Notes under the pieces: model-generated | Database searches by the model: none | Seen by the model: the letters and a program-made list of their open reading frames with translations, nothing else | What the model was told of the DNA's origin: nothing | In this document: positions 3,905 through 29,433 of the stretch, in pieces | Position numbering within the stretch: the stretch's first letter is position 1 | Layout of the letters: every line of letters begins with the position of its first letter | Position numbers and translations under genes: made by a program | From: Vicingaceae bacterium | Lineage (GTDB): Bacteria; Bacteroidota; Bacteroidia; Flavobacteriales_E; Vicingaceae | DNA: 64,000 bases | Direction of reading: 5' to 3' | NCBI GenBank assembly: GCA_028336925.1 | Contig: JAOKVV010000001.1 | Coordinates: 62,001-126,000 of the forward strand

Positions 3905-4708
3905 TTAATTATTAGGAGTTGTGATGGTGTTTATTTGTTCATAAATACCTGTTGCTAAAATAGGGAAATATTTGGTCGTAATGTCATCGATTTTATTTTC
4001 GCGGGAAGGAAACTTGGATTTAGAGATGCCTTTGGCTATTATTATTCCCTCTTTTGTAAATAAGGTATAATGTACTTTCGCCTCTCGGTCATATTCCCCT
4101 GTTTGCATCGTTGTAAAATCGCCATAAATATTTCTAAACTCTAGTTGATTAATGAACAAATATAGTTTTGCTTGATGCTTGTTATATAGGCTGTCTAATA
4201 GGGTTTTGTTGGTTATTTCAGCATTCATAAAGCGCTCTTCAGCAACTCTATTAGTTACTATTTGGCCGCCAAAATCTGCTTCTTCTTTTTTGAACGATTT
4301 TTTTAATTTTCCTTTGAAAGCAGCTGACTTTTCTTCCAAATTACTTTTTTCTTCAGCAGGTAAAACTTCATAGTTTAGCTTACGCGATCTGAATATATGC
4401 GTTAAATCTTGTTCTATTTCATCATCAAAAAAGTAGAAGGAAAGTACATTGTACCGTTCATTAAAAGCTTGATAAAGATGAAAGTCTAATGCTTTCGCAA
4501 ATTCATTTTTCATCTCTTTTGCACTCAGCTTACTTTCCTTTATTAGTTGTTTATCTATTTCAGAGATGTACATAAAGGGTTCAAATGGAATCAATAAAAC
4601 AGCTGCTTTATCAGCAGAAGCTCCTCCATTAAATTGCATGGTTCCACTTTGAGAAAATATAGATAGGTTAAAAATAACCATACCAAAGAGTAAACTAATC
4701 GCTTTCAT
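3905..4708 (-). CDS. Unknown secreted protein
   Basis: A 267-residue protein that I do not recognise. The frame can be read from a TTG at 4750, but the ATG at 4708 begins a clean signal peptide (MKAISLLFGM... ending FSQ) and is preferred. The mature part is mixed alpha/beta and rich in charged residues, with a Lys/Glu-rich stretch near the middle and no Cys or clear catalytic motif. The C-terminal half has beta patterns such as LYLFINQLEF and VHYTLFTKEG. It lies 3 bases upstream of the antiporter and about 90 bases downstream of rseP, so an envelope or ion-stress role is possible but only inferred from neighbours. Confidence 0.7.
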   Translation of the reverse strand: MKAISLLFGMVIFNLSIFSQSGTMQFNGGASADKAAVLLIPFEPFMYISEIDKQLIKESKLSAKEMKNEFAKALDFHLYQAFNERYNVLSFYFFDDEIEQDLTHIFRSRKLNYEVLPAEEKSNLEEKSAAFKGKLKKSFKKEEADFGGQIVTNRVAEERFMNAEITNKTLLDSLYNKHQAKLYLFINQLEFRNIYGDFTTMQTGEYDREAKVHYTLFTKEGIIIAKGISKSKFPSRENKIDDITTKYFPILATGIYEQINTITTPNN

Positions 4709-4801
4709 TATACCAATTGTTTGATTCAAAATTAACTTTATAATCTCCAATTGAGGTGAAATAATAAGGTACTTTAAAACAAGAAAATGTTAATAAGCTT
4801 G

Positions 4802-6121
4802 TTATTGAAACAAACGCAGAATATCGTTTCCATTAGCAAAAACCATTAGTGATAGTAAAATCACAAACCCAACAACCTGAGCATTTTCTAAAAACTTATC
4901 AGATGGTTTTTTACCACTTACGATTTCGTACAACAAAAATAATACATGACCACCATCTAAAGCAGGAATAGGTAGAATATTCATAATGGCTAAAATGATA
5001 GAAAGGAATGCAGTGAAATTCCAAAATCGTTGCCAGTCCCAAGTAGGGGAGAACGCTTTACCTATGCTTATAAATCCACCTAATGATTTGTACGCTTCTG
5101 TCTCTGGTTCAAAAACTAACTTCATTTGCTTAATGTAGTTGTCAAAAGAGTCATAGGCTTTGTTTACACCTGCAGGTATTGATTCTAACGCGCTAAATTC
5201 TTCTGTAGAAAAGGTGATTTGCTCATCCATTGGAGTTATTGCAAAACCCAATGTTCCATTTGATCGAACCGTTGCAGGCAATTCAATCATAGCGTTATTT
5301 CTGTTGACTTTTAAGATTACTGACTCGTTTGGACGCTCTTTTAGGTAACTAACTACATCTTGAAAAAATGGCGTAGAGCTATTATCAATTCCTAGTATAA
5401 TATCTTTTGGTAATAATCCTGCACTATCAGCCGGAGTATTTGGCGTAACTTCTTTTACCTCTGCTATTATAGCGGGCTCCAAGAAGCTTTTTTGATTTTT
5501 TATTAAACCTGAAATCGTTCCATCGGGAAGCGTGATATCTTCCTGTTTTTGATTTCGCTCTATGGTAACTTGCTTTGCATTGTTGATTAGAATATTCATC
5601 TGAATATCACTAAATTTTTCTATTTTTTCACCGTCAACTGCTAAAATCTTGTCCCCACTTTTTAGCCCCATGTTTACTGCCACACTGTCTGCGTAAACAC
5701 CGTACTTTAAGCCTTCTGTAGCAATGTACTCATTACCCCAAGTAAATAAAATACCTGCGTAGATTACAATTCCGAGGATTACATTCACGATTACACCACC
5801 TAGCATAATAATTAGTCGCTGCCAAGCTGGTTTGGACCTAAATTCCCAAGGCTTTGGCTCTTCCTTCATTTGCTCCTTATCCATCGATTCATCGATCATT
5901 CCGGCAATTTTCACGTAGCCACCAAGCGGCAACCAACCAATTCCGTATTCTGTTTCACCCTTTTTGAATTTGAAGAGTGAGAACCATGGATCAAAGAAAA
6001 GATAAAACTTTTCTACTTTGGTTTTGAATAATTTAGCAGGTATAAAGTGACCAAGCTCATGTAAGATTACGAGAATTGATAAACTCAAAATGAGCTGTGC
6101 GGCTTGAATAAGTACTTCCAT
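4802..6121 (-). CDS. rseP: RIP metalloprotease RseP (site-2 protease family)
   Basis: An intramembrane zinc protease of 439 residues counted from the ATG at 6121. The open frame continues upstream only to a TTG at 6145, without a better start. The HELGH zinc site lies at residues 21-25 in the first membrane helix. The second conserved motif, PALDGGH, lies in a C-terminal helix. Two PDZ regions sit between the membrane segments (motifs GLKSGDKILAVDG and GLLPKDIILGID). In other bacteria RseP cleaves anti-sigma factors and leftover signal peptides. The antiporter group lies downstream and dxr upstream; dxr-rseP adjacency is common in bacteria. Confidence 0.92.
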   Translation of the reverse strand: MEVLIQAAQLILSLSILVILHELGHFIPAKLFKTKVEKFYLFFDPWFSLFKFKKGETEYGIGWLPLGGYVKIAGMIDESMDKEQMKEEPKPWEFRSKPAWQRLIIMLGGVIVNVILGIVIYAGILFTWGNEYIATEGLKYGVYADSVAVNMGLKSGDKILAVDGEKIEKFSDIQMNILINNAKQVTIERNQKQEDITLPDGTISGLIKNQKSFLEPAIIAEVKEVTPNTPADSAGLLPKDIILGIDNSSTPFFQDVVSYLKERPNESVILKVNRNNAMIELPATVRSNGTLGFAITPMDEQITFSTEEFSALESIPAGVNKAYDSFDNYIKQMKLVFEPETEAYKSLGGFISIGKAFSPTWDWQRFWNFTAFLSIILAIMNILPIPALDGGHVLFLLYEIVSGKKPSDKFLENAQVVGFVILLSLMVFANGNDILRLFQ

Positions 6122-27814: not shown

Positions 27815-27849
27815 AAAGCTCTAAGGTTTAAAACTTTAGAGCTTTTTTT
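27815..27849 (+). terminator. Intrinsic terminator of the atp operon
   Basis: AAAGCTCTAAGGTTT and AAACTTTAGAGCTTT pair along their length with one G-T pair and are followed by a T-run. The hairpin begins 22 bases past the atpG stop. Confidence 0.85.
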
Positions 27850-27912: not shown

Positions 27913-28644
27913 ATGAACTTAAAGTACATAGCCTTATTTACCTGTATACTCGTTTTCGCTTCATGCGGATCAAAGAATGATTCCAATCAGAATGACAATT
28001 CTGAAGTGAAAGTAGCTGGAGCCATGAAAAATGTAATGTGGAAAGGCGAATTAGGCAGCGTAATATCTCTAGATACCATCACCAATCGAAAAGGGCTATT
28101 TGGTATTGGACCATTAGCGTATCTAAAAGGAGAGATATTACTTTTAAATGGTCGTGCATATGTTTCAAGAATCCAGGATGATGGAACGCCTACAGTCAAT
28201 ATTGAGGAAAATGTAAATGCTCCTTTCTTTGTGTATGCGAATCAGAATGATTGGAAAGAGATTATCTTACCGGAGAATGTTGTTGGGATCTCTGCTATTG
28301 AAGACTTTGTGGCACGGCAAACAAAAGATGTTACTGAGCCATTTGTATTTAAAATTCATGGAACTGCATTAAAAGCAACATATCATATACAGAATTTAGC
28401 TGATGGCAGTGTGGTTACAAATCCTGATGAGGCCCATGCAGGTCAACAATCCTTTAAAATCTTTAATAAAAAAGTGGTTATCATCGGCTTTTACTCAAAA
28501 AATCATCAAGGAATTTTTACACATCATGATTCCAATATGCATCTACATGTAATTACATCCGATTGGAAGCATATGGGGCATTTAGATGAACTTACTTTAG
28601 ATGTTCAGTCAGGAACACTGCTTTTGCCATCAGAACTGCCTTAA
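27913..28644 (+). CDS. budA: Acetolactate decarboxylase, lipoprotein form
   Basis: A 243-residue protein of the alpha-acetolactate decarboxylase family, which makes acetoin from 2-acetolactate. The zinc ligands are visible as H210 and H212 (MHLHV) and H223 (GHLDEL). This 2/11 spacing is the same as in the Brevibacillus enzyme as I recall it. The family block GFYSKNHQGIFTHHD is also intact. Unusually, the protein starts with a lipoprotein signal (LVFASC-GSKN), so it should be anchored in the envelope rather than cytosolic. No acetolactate synthase or acetoin gene is nearby. It stands alone after the atp terminator. Confidence 0.88.
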   Translation: MNLKYIALFTCILVFASCGSKNDSNQNDNSEVKVAGAMKNVMWKGELGSVISLDTITNRKGLFGIGPLAYLKGEILLLNGRAYVSRIQDDGTPTVNIEENVNAPFFVYANQNDWKEIILPENVVGISAIEDFVARQTKDVTEPFVFKIHGTALKATYHIQNLADGSVVTNPDEAHAGQQSFKIFNKKVVIIGFYSKNHQGIFTHHDSNMHLHVITSDWKHMGHLDELTLDVQSGTLLLPSELP

Positions 28645-28724: not shown

Positions 28725-29045
28725 ATGCTAAAGTACTTGCGTTATTTTCTATCTATTGTATTAATTCTTGCTCTTTTATTAGCATTTACAAAACCAAATG
28801 AACAGGATTTTTTAGATCAGGTTGTTAATGATTATGGTCAAATTCATGGGAACGATGATCTAACCCGCTCTGATTTGGAAAGATTGGGCACAACCCACTA
28901 TTCTTCACACCTTTTTGCAAGTTCATACACCTACCAATTTGGTGCAATTAATGTGCAATACATTGGTTTATTAGGTCGTATTTATTACCAAGGGTTTGAA
29001 GATAAAGCGGAAGAAAAGGTTAGTTCTGAAAGTATAGATGTTTAA
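28725..29045 (+). CDS. Small membrane-anchored protein, DUF4359-like
   Basis: A 106-residue protein with one N-terminal hydrophobic segment (residues 5-21, LRYFLSIVLILALLLAF) followed by a short polar domain containing TKPNEQDFLDQV and IGLLGRIYYQG. The arrangement recalls small DUF4359-type proteins, but I am not certain of the family. It has no Cys or catalytic motif. It is followed 13 bases later by the DUF2237 gene and may be co-transcribed with it. Function is unknown. Confidence 0.65.
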   Translation: MLKYLRYFLSIVLILALLLAFTKPNEQDFLDQVVNDYGQIHGNDDLTRSDLERLGTTHYSSHLFASSYTYQFGAINVQYIGLLGRIYYQGFEDKAEEKVSSESIDV

Positions 29046-29058
29046 TTAGTTATAGATT

Positions 29059-29433
29059 ATGGATAAAGCTTTGAATGTTTTGGGGAGCAATTTGATAGAT
29101 TGCAGTGTATCTCCTATGACTGGCTTTTACAGAGATGGGTGCTGTAAAACAGGAGCAGAGGATTTTGGTACCCATACAGTTTGTGCCCAAATGACAGAGG
29201 AGTTTTTAACGTACACCAAGTCAAAGGGGAATGATCTTTCTACACCTATTCCTGTATATAATTTTCCAGGACTAAAGGTGGGCGACTTTTGGTGTTTATG
29301 TGCTTTTAGATGGAAAGAAGCTTTTGAAGCAGGAAAAGCACCTAATGTAAATCTGAATGCTACGCACGAAAAAACATTACAATTTATTAAGCTAGAGGAC
29401 CTAAAAAAGCATACCATTGAGAACGTTGATTGA
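29059..29433 (+). CDS. DUF2237 family protein
   Basis: A 124-residue soluble protein matching DUF2237 over its full length. The block NVLGSNLIDCSVSPMTGFYRDG-CC opens the domain, GTHTVCAQMTEEFL follows, and GDFWCLCAFRW-EA-EAG-AP closes it. The many conserved Cys (about residues 15, 29, 30, 42, 79 and 81) suggest metal binding or redox chemistry, but no function is established to my knowledge. Its 3' end overlaps the next gene by 17 bases or fewer, depending on which TTG start is used there. Confidence 0.88.
   Translation: MDKALNVLGSNLIDCSVSPMTGFYRDGCCKTGAEDFGTHTVCAQMTEEFLTYTKSKGNDLSTPIPVYNFPGLKVGDFWCLCAFRWKEAFEAGKAPNVNLNATHEKTLQFIKLEDLKKHTIENVD

Follow-up and report, generated by a model that had tools for sequence, protein, structure and literature searches.

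The window, the whole 64,000-nucleotide stretch of DNA analysed here, contains a gene whose product was described in a first-pass annotation as an acetolactate decarboxylase (ALDC) that begins with a lipoprotein signal. As that annotation argued, acetolactate is made in the cytosol, so that an envelope-anchored decarboxylase would be puzzling, and the question raised by the locus is which reaction a protein of this kind could catalyze outside the cytosol. The gene is real (Table 1). The reading frame starts with ATG and its 243-residue product matched PF03306 with an E value of 5e-15 (55.9 bits, cut-off 25). The genes upstream, named by eye, encode ATP synthase, and the terminator-like stem-loop that separates atpG from the gene was a single find against a mean of 0.7 in shuffled sequence. 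No acetoin genes were recognised by eye among the open reading frames listed from 21.6 to 36.0 kb, in agreement with the annotation, while the family-model scans near the locus covered the window gene and the next two open reading frames only. The first of these, at 28725-29045, begins 80 bases after the window gene and encodes 106 residues with a hydrophobic N-terminus that had no match in Pfam and NCBIfam scans; the second, at 29059-29433, is a DUF2237 gene (E 1.5e-55).

Table 1. Positions of the features of the locus in the window, and the basis of each assignment
Feature	Positions	Strand	Basis
Terminator-like stem-loop between atpG and the window gene	27815..27845	+	14 pairs
Gene of the ALDC-fold lipoprotein	27913..28644	+	Open reading frame, PF03306 match, predicted model compared with ALDC structures
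Sec/SPII-like signal with lipobox FASC, Cys18	27913..27966	+	Direct reading
E74, metal ligand (ALDC E65)	28132..28134	+	Alignment to 4bt2; 107/107 proteins
H158, at the ALDC Arg145 position	28384..28386	+	Alignment to 4bt2; 107-protein alignment
T203-H204-H205-D206 loop, absent from canonical ALDC	28519..28530	+	Alignment
H210-x-H212, metal ligands	28540..28548	+	Alignment to 4bt2; 107-protein alignment
H223, metal ligand	28579..28581	+	Alignment to 4bt2; 107-protein alignment

The fold and the metal site are those of an ALDC. The AlphaFold2 model of the window protein (pLDDT 93.1, pTM 0.86) had ALDCs as its best matches in the PDB, with a Foldseek E value of 8e-15 and 20% identity to 4bt3, and the VIA alignment with the same structure placed residues 27-243 of the model on residues 20-224 of the chain (Z 24.2, 203 residues). 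Human PTD012 (1xcr; VIA Z 15.2, Foldseek E 9e-7) followed the ALDCs in fold similarity, in a VIA-align list that leaves room for other folds. In the phmmer alignment with the Brevibacillus brevis ALDC, 4bt2, residues Glu65, His194, His196 and His207, which we take to be the zinc ligands of ALDC, corresponded to E74, H210, H212 and H223, and the HxH-x10-H spacing was identical in the two proteins, so that the zinc ligands with exact spacing reported in the first-pass annotation were borne out. The same E/H/H/H core was kept in all 107 proteins of an alignment that comprised 21 canonical ALDCs, 73 members of the subclade of the window protein and 13 members of a sister subclade. Three pieces shorter than 200 residues (L040, L082 and L080) were left out of this alignment, and L047, which is cut at a contig end, was dropped from a canonical set of 22.

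A PF03306 domain was found in 41 of the 392 genomes sampled from the phylum and in 5 of the 46 genomes of the window's family, the window genome included. Apart from one fragment, the scores formed two groups, approximately 190-294 and 25-76 bits, the lower of which reached 81 bits in the survey of the window's family. A quick tree search, in which several rows of the sister subclade were on long branches, separated the canonical proteins from the two other subclades, together called the His clade here, with an SH-aLRT support of 100 on long branches, and grouped the window protein with L002 (Nonlabens) and L077 (support 99). The 86 aligned proteins of the His clade would derive from, or be sister to, ALDC. 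Among 72,556 plasmid records there was one relative, a distant one on an Acinetobacter plasmid (25.7% identity). It has a His at position 158 and an N-terminus that resembles a signal when inspected by eye; the clade therefore seems not to be limited to Bacteroidota. This relative is annotated as acetolactate decarboxylase, an example of how His-clade proteins can be given that label, and genomes may in this way be wrongly credited with acetoin or diacetyl metabolism.

The N-terminus of the window protein, MNLKYIALFTCILVFASC, has the lipobox FASC noted in the first-pass annotation. The lipobox position was Cys in all 41 close sequences (the window protein and 40 of 41 relatives, the truncated L040 being excluded) and in 55 of the 73 proteins of the wider window subclade. 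A cytosolic start at M38 or M42 was considered and rejected as unlikely, because the Cys upstream of both is conserved. By crude in-house rules, not SignalP, 46 of the 73 proteins in the window subclade had SPII-like signals, 18 had SPI-like signals ending before Gln, 7 had other hydrophobic N-termini and 2 had none, and the same rules sorted the 21 ALDCs sampled from the canonical branch in the phylum into 9 with a lipobox or SPII-like signal, 7 whose SPI-like signal stops before a Gln and 5 with neither, one of which (L101) may have been cut short at its start. By a rule reported in PMC5837995, SPI cleavage in Bacteroidetes exposes a Gln. Export-like signals were thus shared among the Bacteroidota homologues, with 16 of the 21 canonical proteins (L097, L098, L100, L103 and L104 among them) and most of the window subclade carrying one. 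As judged from these N-termini, exported ALDC-fold proteins are common in the phylum, and the window gene is not unusual by its location alone: the export signal that gave rise to the puzzle is present, but the puzzle itself is weaker. The window protein is probably lipid-anchored in the membrane.

The residues around the metal have changed. Arg145 and the C-terminal Glu253 are, we assume, active-site residues of ALDC, and Arg145 presumably binds the carboxylate of the substrate. The position of Arg145 was occupied by His in 73 of 73 proteins of the window subclade and 13 of 13 of the sister subclade, that is, 86 of 86, whereas the canonical set had 17 Arg, 3 Gly and 1 Ala. The loop residues T203, H204 and H205 were present in 72, 72 and 70 of the 73 window-subclade proteins, respectively, and each in 12 of the 13 sister proteins; the T203 and H204 columns were gaps in all 21 canonical proteins. 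Two further histidines, H175 (67/73) and H198 (70/73), were conserved in the window subclade. The chain that follows the last metal ligand is also short. The window protein has 20 residues after H223, where 46 would be needed to reach the Glu253 position, and its model ends opposite residue 224 of the 4bt3 chain, with nothing that reaches residue 253. The corresponding tail was 15-30 residues long in 85 of the 86 clade proteins, the exception being L085, which runs into an FmdE domain, and 22-51 residues (median 47) in the canonical proteins. By our own count (H207 + 46), a Glu occupied the Glu253 place in 11 of the 21 canonical proteins. Residue loss, as it appears in the alignment, is not unique to the His clade, with 4 of the 21 canonical-branch Bacteroidota proteins lacking Arg145 and 10 of 21 lacking a Glu253-like tail residue.

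The supply of acetolactate was assessed in the carrier genomes. In the window genome, which is 69.8% complete, the catabolic and biosynthetic acetolactate synthase models had no match, an absence that is weakened by the incompleteness, and the biosynthetic model had no match in two congeners that are 99% complete; it was over its cut-off in 7 of the 46 genomes of the family. The survey for a synthase elsewhere in the genome, which the first-pass annotation had proposed, gave no match in the incomplete window genome and a divided picture for the clade: TIGR00118 (acetolactate synthase) was over its cut-off in 13 of 24 His-clade genomes, a count that includes G304, which carries both types of protein. 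Among the His-clade genomes that are at least 90% complete, 9 of 22 had no TIGR00118 match over the cut-off, although in one of them, G266, a match of 349 bits falls short of it; of the 21 canonical-only genomes found, 14 were tested and all 14 had the synthase (9/22 vs 0/14 without it, Fisher p 0.006). The occurrence of His-clade carriers without the synthase speaks against endogenous acetolactate as the common substrate, although acetolactate from outside could serve. Acetolactate is an unlikely substrate of the window protein, and most likely the acetolactate of the cell itself is not converted to acetoin by it.

Compared with AlsD/BudA (PF03306, TIGR01252, 4bt2), the window protein shares the fold, the domain, the four metal ligands and their spacing, but differs in that 1) it has His in place of Arg145, 2) it has the THH(D) loop, 3) the Glu253 region is missing, 4) its score against the TIGR01252 equivalog model, 41.1 bits, is far below the cut-off of 180.65 and 5) its clade is not tied to acetolactate synthase. 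The name acetolactate decarboxylase, given in the first-pass annotation, is hard to maintain in view of these differences and of the missing synthase in the window genome and its two congeners; of the options that the annotation had offered, the use of another substrate is the best supported. The best reading is that the gene probably encodes an exported ALDC-fold metalloprotein re-tooled for a reaction on something other than acetolactate, with the caveat that a His might in principle do the work of Arg145. The metalloprotein would be held in the envelope by a lipid anchor, on the periplasmic side or at the cell surface, and E74, H210, H212 and H223 would hold a metal ion, zinc or copper, that may polarise a carbonyl or hydroxyl group on a small substrate in the envelope. 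The Arg that contacts the carboxylate of the substrate in ALDC would be replaced by H158, and H204 and H205, with H175 and H198, could supply acid/base groups or a second site for a metal above the pocket; loss of the C-terminal tail may leave this pocket more open. The His clade is a case, open to testing, in which a metal-enzyme fold was placed in the envelope and acquired a new set of residues near the metal.

An alternative is that these are His-rich copper-binding or copper-dependent ALDC-fold proteins that act alongside copper efflux and oxidases in the envelope. No conserved partner gene recurred widely around the window subclade, and the largest neighbour cluster besides the ALDC genes, short-chain dehydrogenase-like by eye, was found at 8 of 79 loci with three groups pooled. 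Copper/heavy-metal markers (a CusA-type pump, a heavy-metal P-type ATPase, a multicopper oxidase, or an HMBD or HMA protein) were counted within 4.5 kb, with one marker set applied alike to all loci, controls included; L165, in which the target gene was not caught by the ORF caller, was dropped, and G450 and G733 were absent from the locus sample. A marker was beside the gene at 8 of 24 loci of the sister subclade, 2 of 75 of the window subclade, 0 of the 14 canonical loci (of 21) with wide flanks and 1 of 57 arbitrary controls. The Fisher p for the sister subclade against the control, 1.7e-4, is generous, because the seeds were chosen once the loci had been seen and those for the oxidase came from L226 and L229, two of the eight positive loci. 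The window subclade was not enriched (p 1.0) and the window gene itself had no marker within 4.5 kb. The final markers were positive at 3 sister loci in the first batch of 13 and at 5 in the later batch of 11; with markers fixed beforehand, the later loci gave 3 of 11 (L225, L226 and L229) compared with 1 of 17 new controls (p 0.27), or p 0.012 against all 57 controls. An earlier count that used a generic RND pump seed (sister subclade 5/13, window subclade 5/75, canonical 0/14, control 0/40) was discarded. In the recount, L080, L081 and L042 fell out because NCBIfam puts the RND pump (L081) below its heavy-metal cut-off, the CDF seed was dropped, which removed L024 and L085, and the marker set was extended, for the controls as well, by seeds for multicopper oxidases and a broader HMA motif.

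CusA-type pumps were near the gene in L079, L083, L225 and L226, with a heavy-metal ATPase also present in L083 and L226, and family models confirmed the CusA type in L226, L083 and L079. The order CusA, a gene of 405-432 residues that we take from its place and size to be an outer-membrane factor, and the ALDC-like gene recurred in L083, L225 and L226, but these three loci are from one taxonomic family; the other cases are from five (f9, f78, f132, f136 and f57). A multicopper oxidase gene, confirmed by family models, lay 0-331 bases from the ALDC-like gene in L144, L226, L229 and L233, the copy in L233 being broken, while the marker of L234 was an HMA motif match only. An HxHxKH motif was found in 11 of the 13 aligned sister proteins and in 10 of 10 later members, but in none of the 73 proteins of the window subclade, nor in L079, which is one of the CusA-type cases. 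Within the window subclade, the protein of L152 is fused to a heavy-metal binding domain and the gene of L092 is 14 bases from a heavy-metal ATPase gene. A role in envelope copper handling is on balance unlikely, and we would not expect the whole His clade to be a family of envelope copper proteins or copper-dependent enzymes in which an added copper site is built from H158 and the THH loop, joined in the sister subclade by HxHxKH. That sister-subclade genes repeatedly lie next to Cus genes and genes for multicopper oxidases hints at a component of copper handling that may so far have gone undescribed. The multicopper-oxidase-like genes at L229:5639-10599, L233:3793-4968 and L144:3095-3571 are upstream of the ALDC-like gene, several carry T9SS sorting tails, and in L229 the oxidase domains are split over three separate genes.

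That the window protein is a true ALDC outside the cytosol, which would turn acetolactate that leaks from the cell or comes from neighbours into acetoin, is quite improbable. The retained fold and metal site, the frequent export signals of the canonical branch and the lipobox protein L098, a canonical-branch member with both Arg145 and a Glu253-like residue, argue for this possibility; the His at the Arg145 position throughout the His clade, the loss of the Glu253 region in 85 of 86 proteins, the equivalog score and the near-complete carriers without a synthase over the cut-off argue against it and for the re-tooled metalloprotein. Secretion of an ALDC has a precedent in B. brevis, whose enzyme is said, in work of Diderichsen et al. 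from 1990, to be secreted; it is likewise an ALDC-fold protein outside the cytosol, but a true ALDC with Arg145. The matched passages of PMC5489476 contain no text on this secretion, and no exported or copper-linked ALDC-like proteins of Bacteroidota were recognised in the openly licensed literature, a weak test of their absence from print.

A metal-dependent hydrolase of acylated or esterified envelope or glycan substrates, like human PTD012 (C11orf54), which is zinc-containing according to the title of its PDB entry and presumably has esterase activity, is quite unlikely: the related fold of PTD012 and the fusion of one clade protein, L093, to a sialic-acid-specific acetylesterase domain are consistent with it, but there is only the one fusion, the identity to PTD012 is 10-12%, its length is different and neighbour families do not recur widely around the gene.

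Several ALDC-like domains are parts of larger proteins. The acetylesterase (SASA) domain and the ALDC-like domain are joined in L093:4675-6195, and in L152:5093-5917 the heavy-metal binding domain (HMBD) is N-terminal. Long N-terminal regions without a Pfam match are found before the ALDC domain in L056:372-1952, where the domain is of the canonical type, and in L158:4666-5856. The fusion to FmdE is encoded at L085:5221-6534 and is adjoined by a second ALDC-like gene at 4487-5248.
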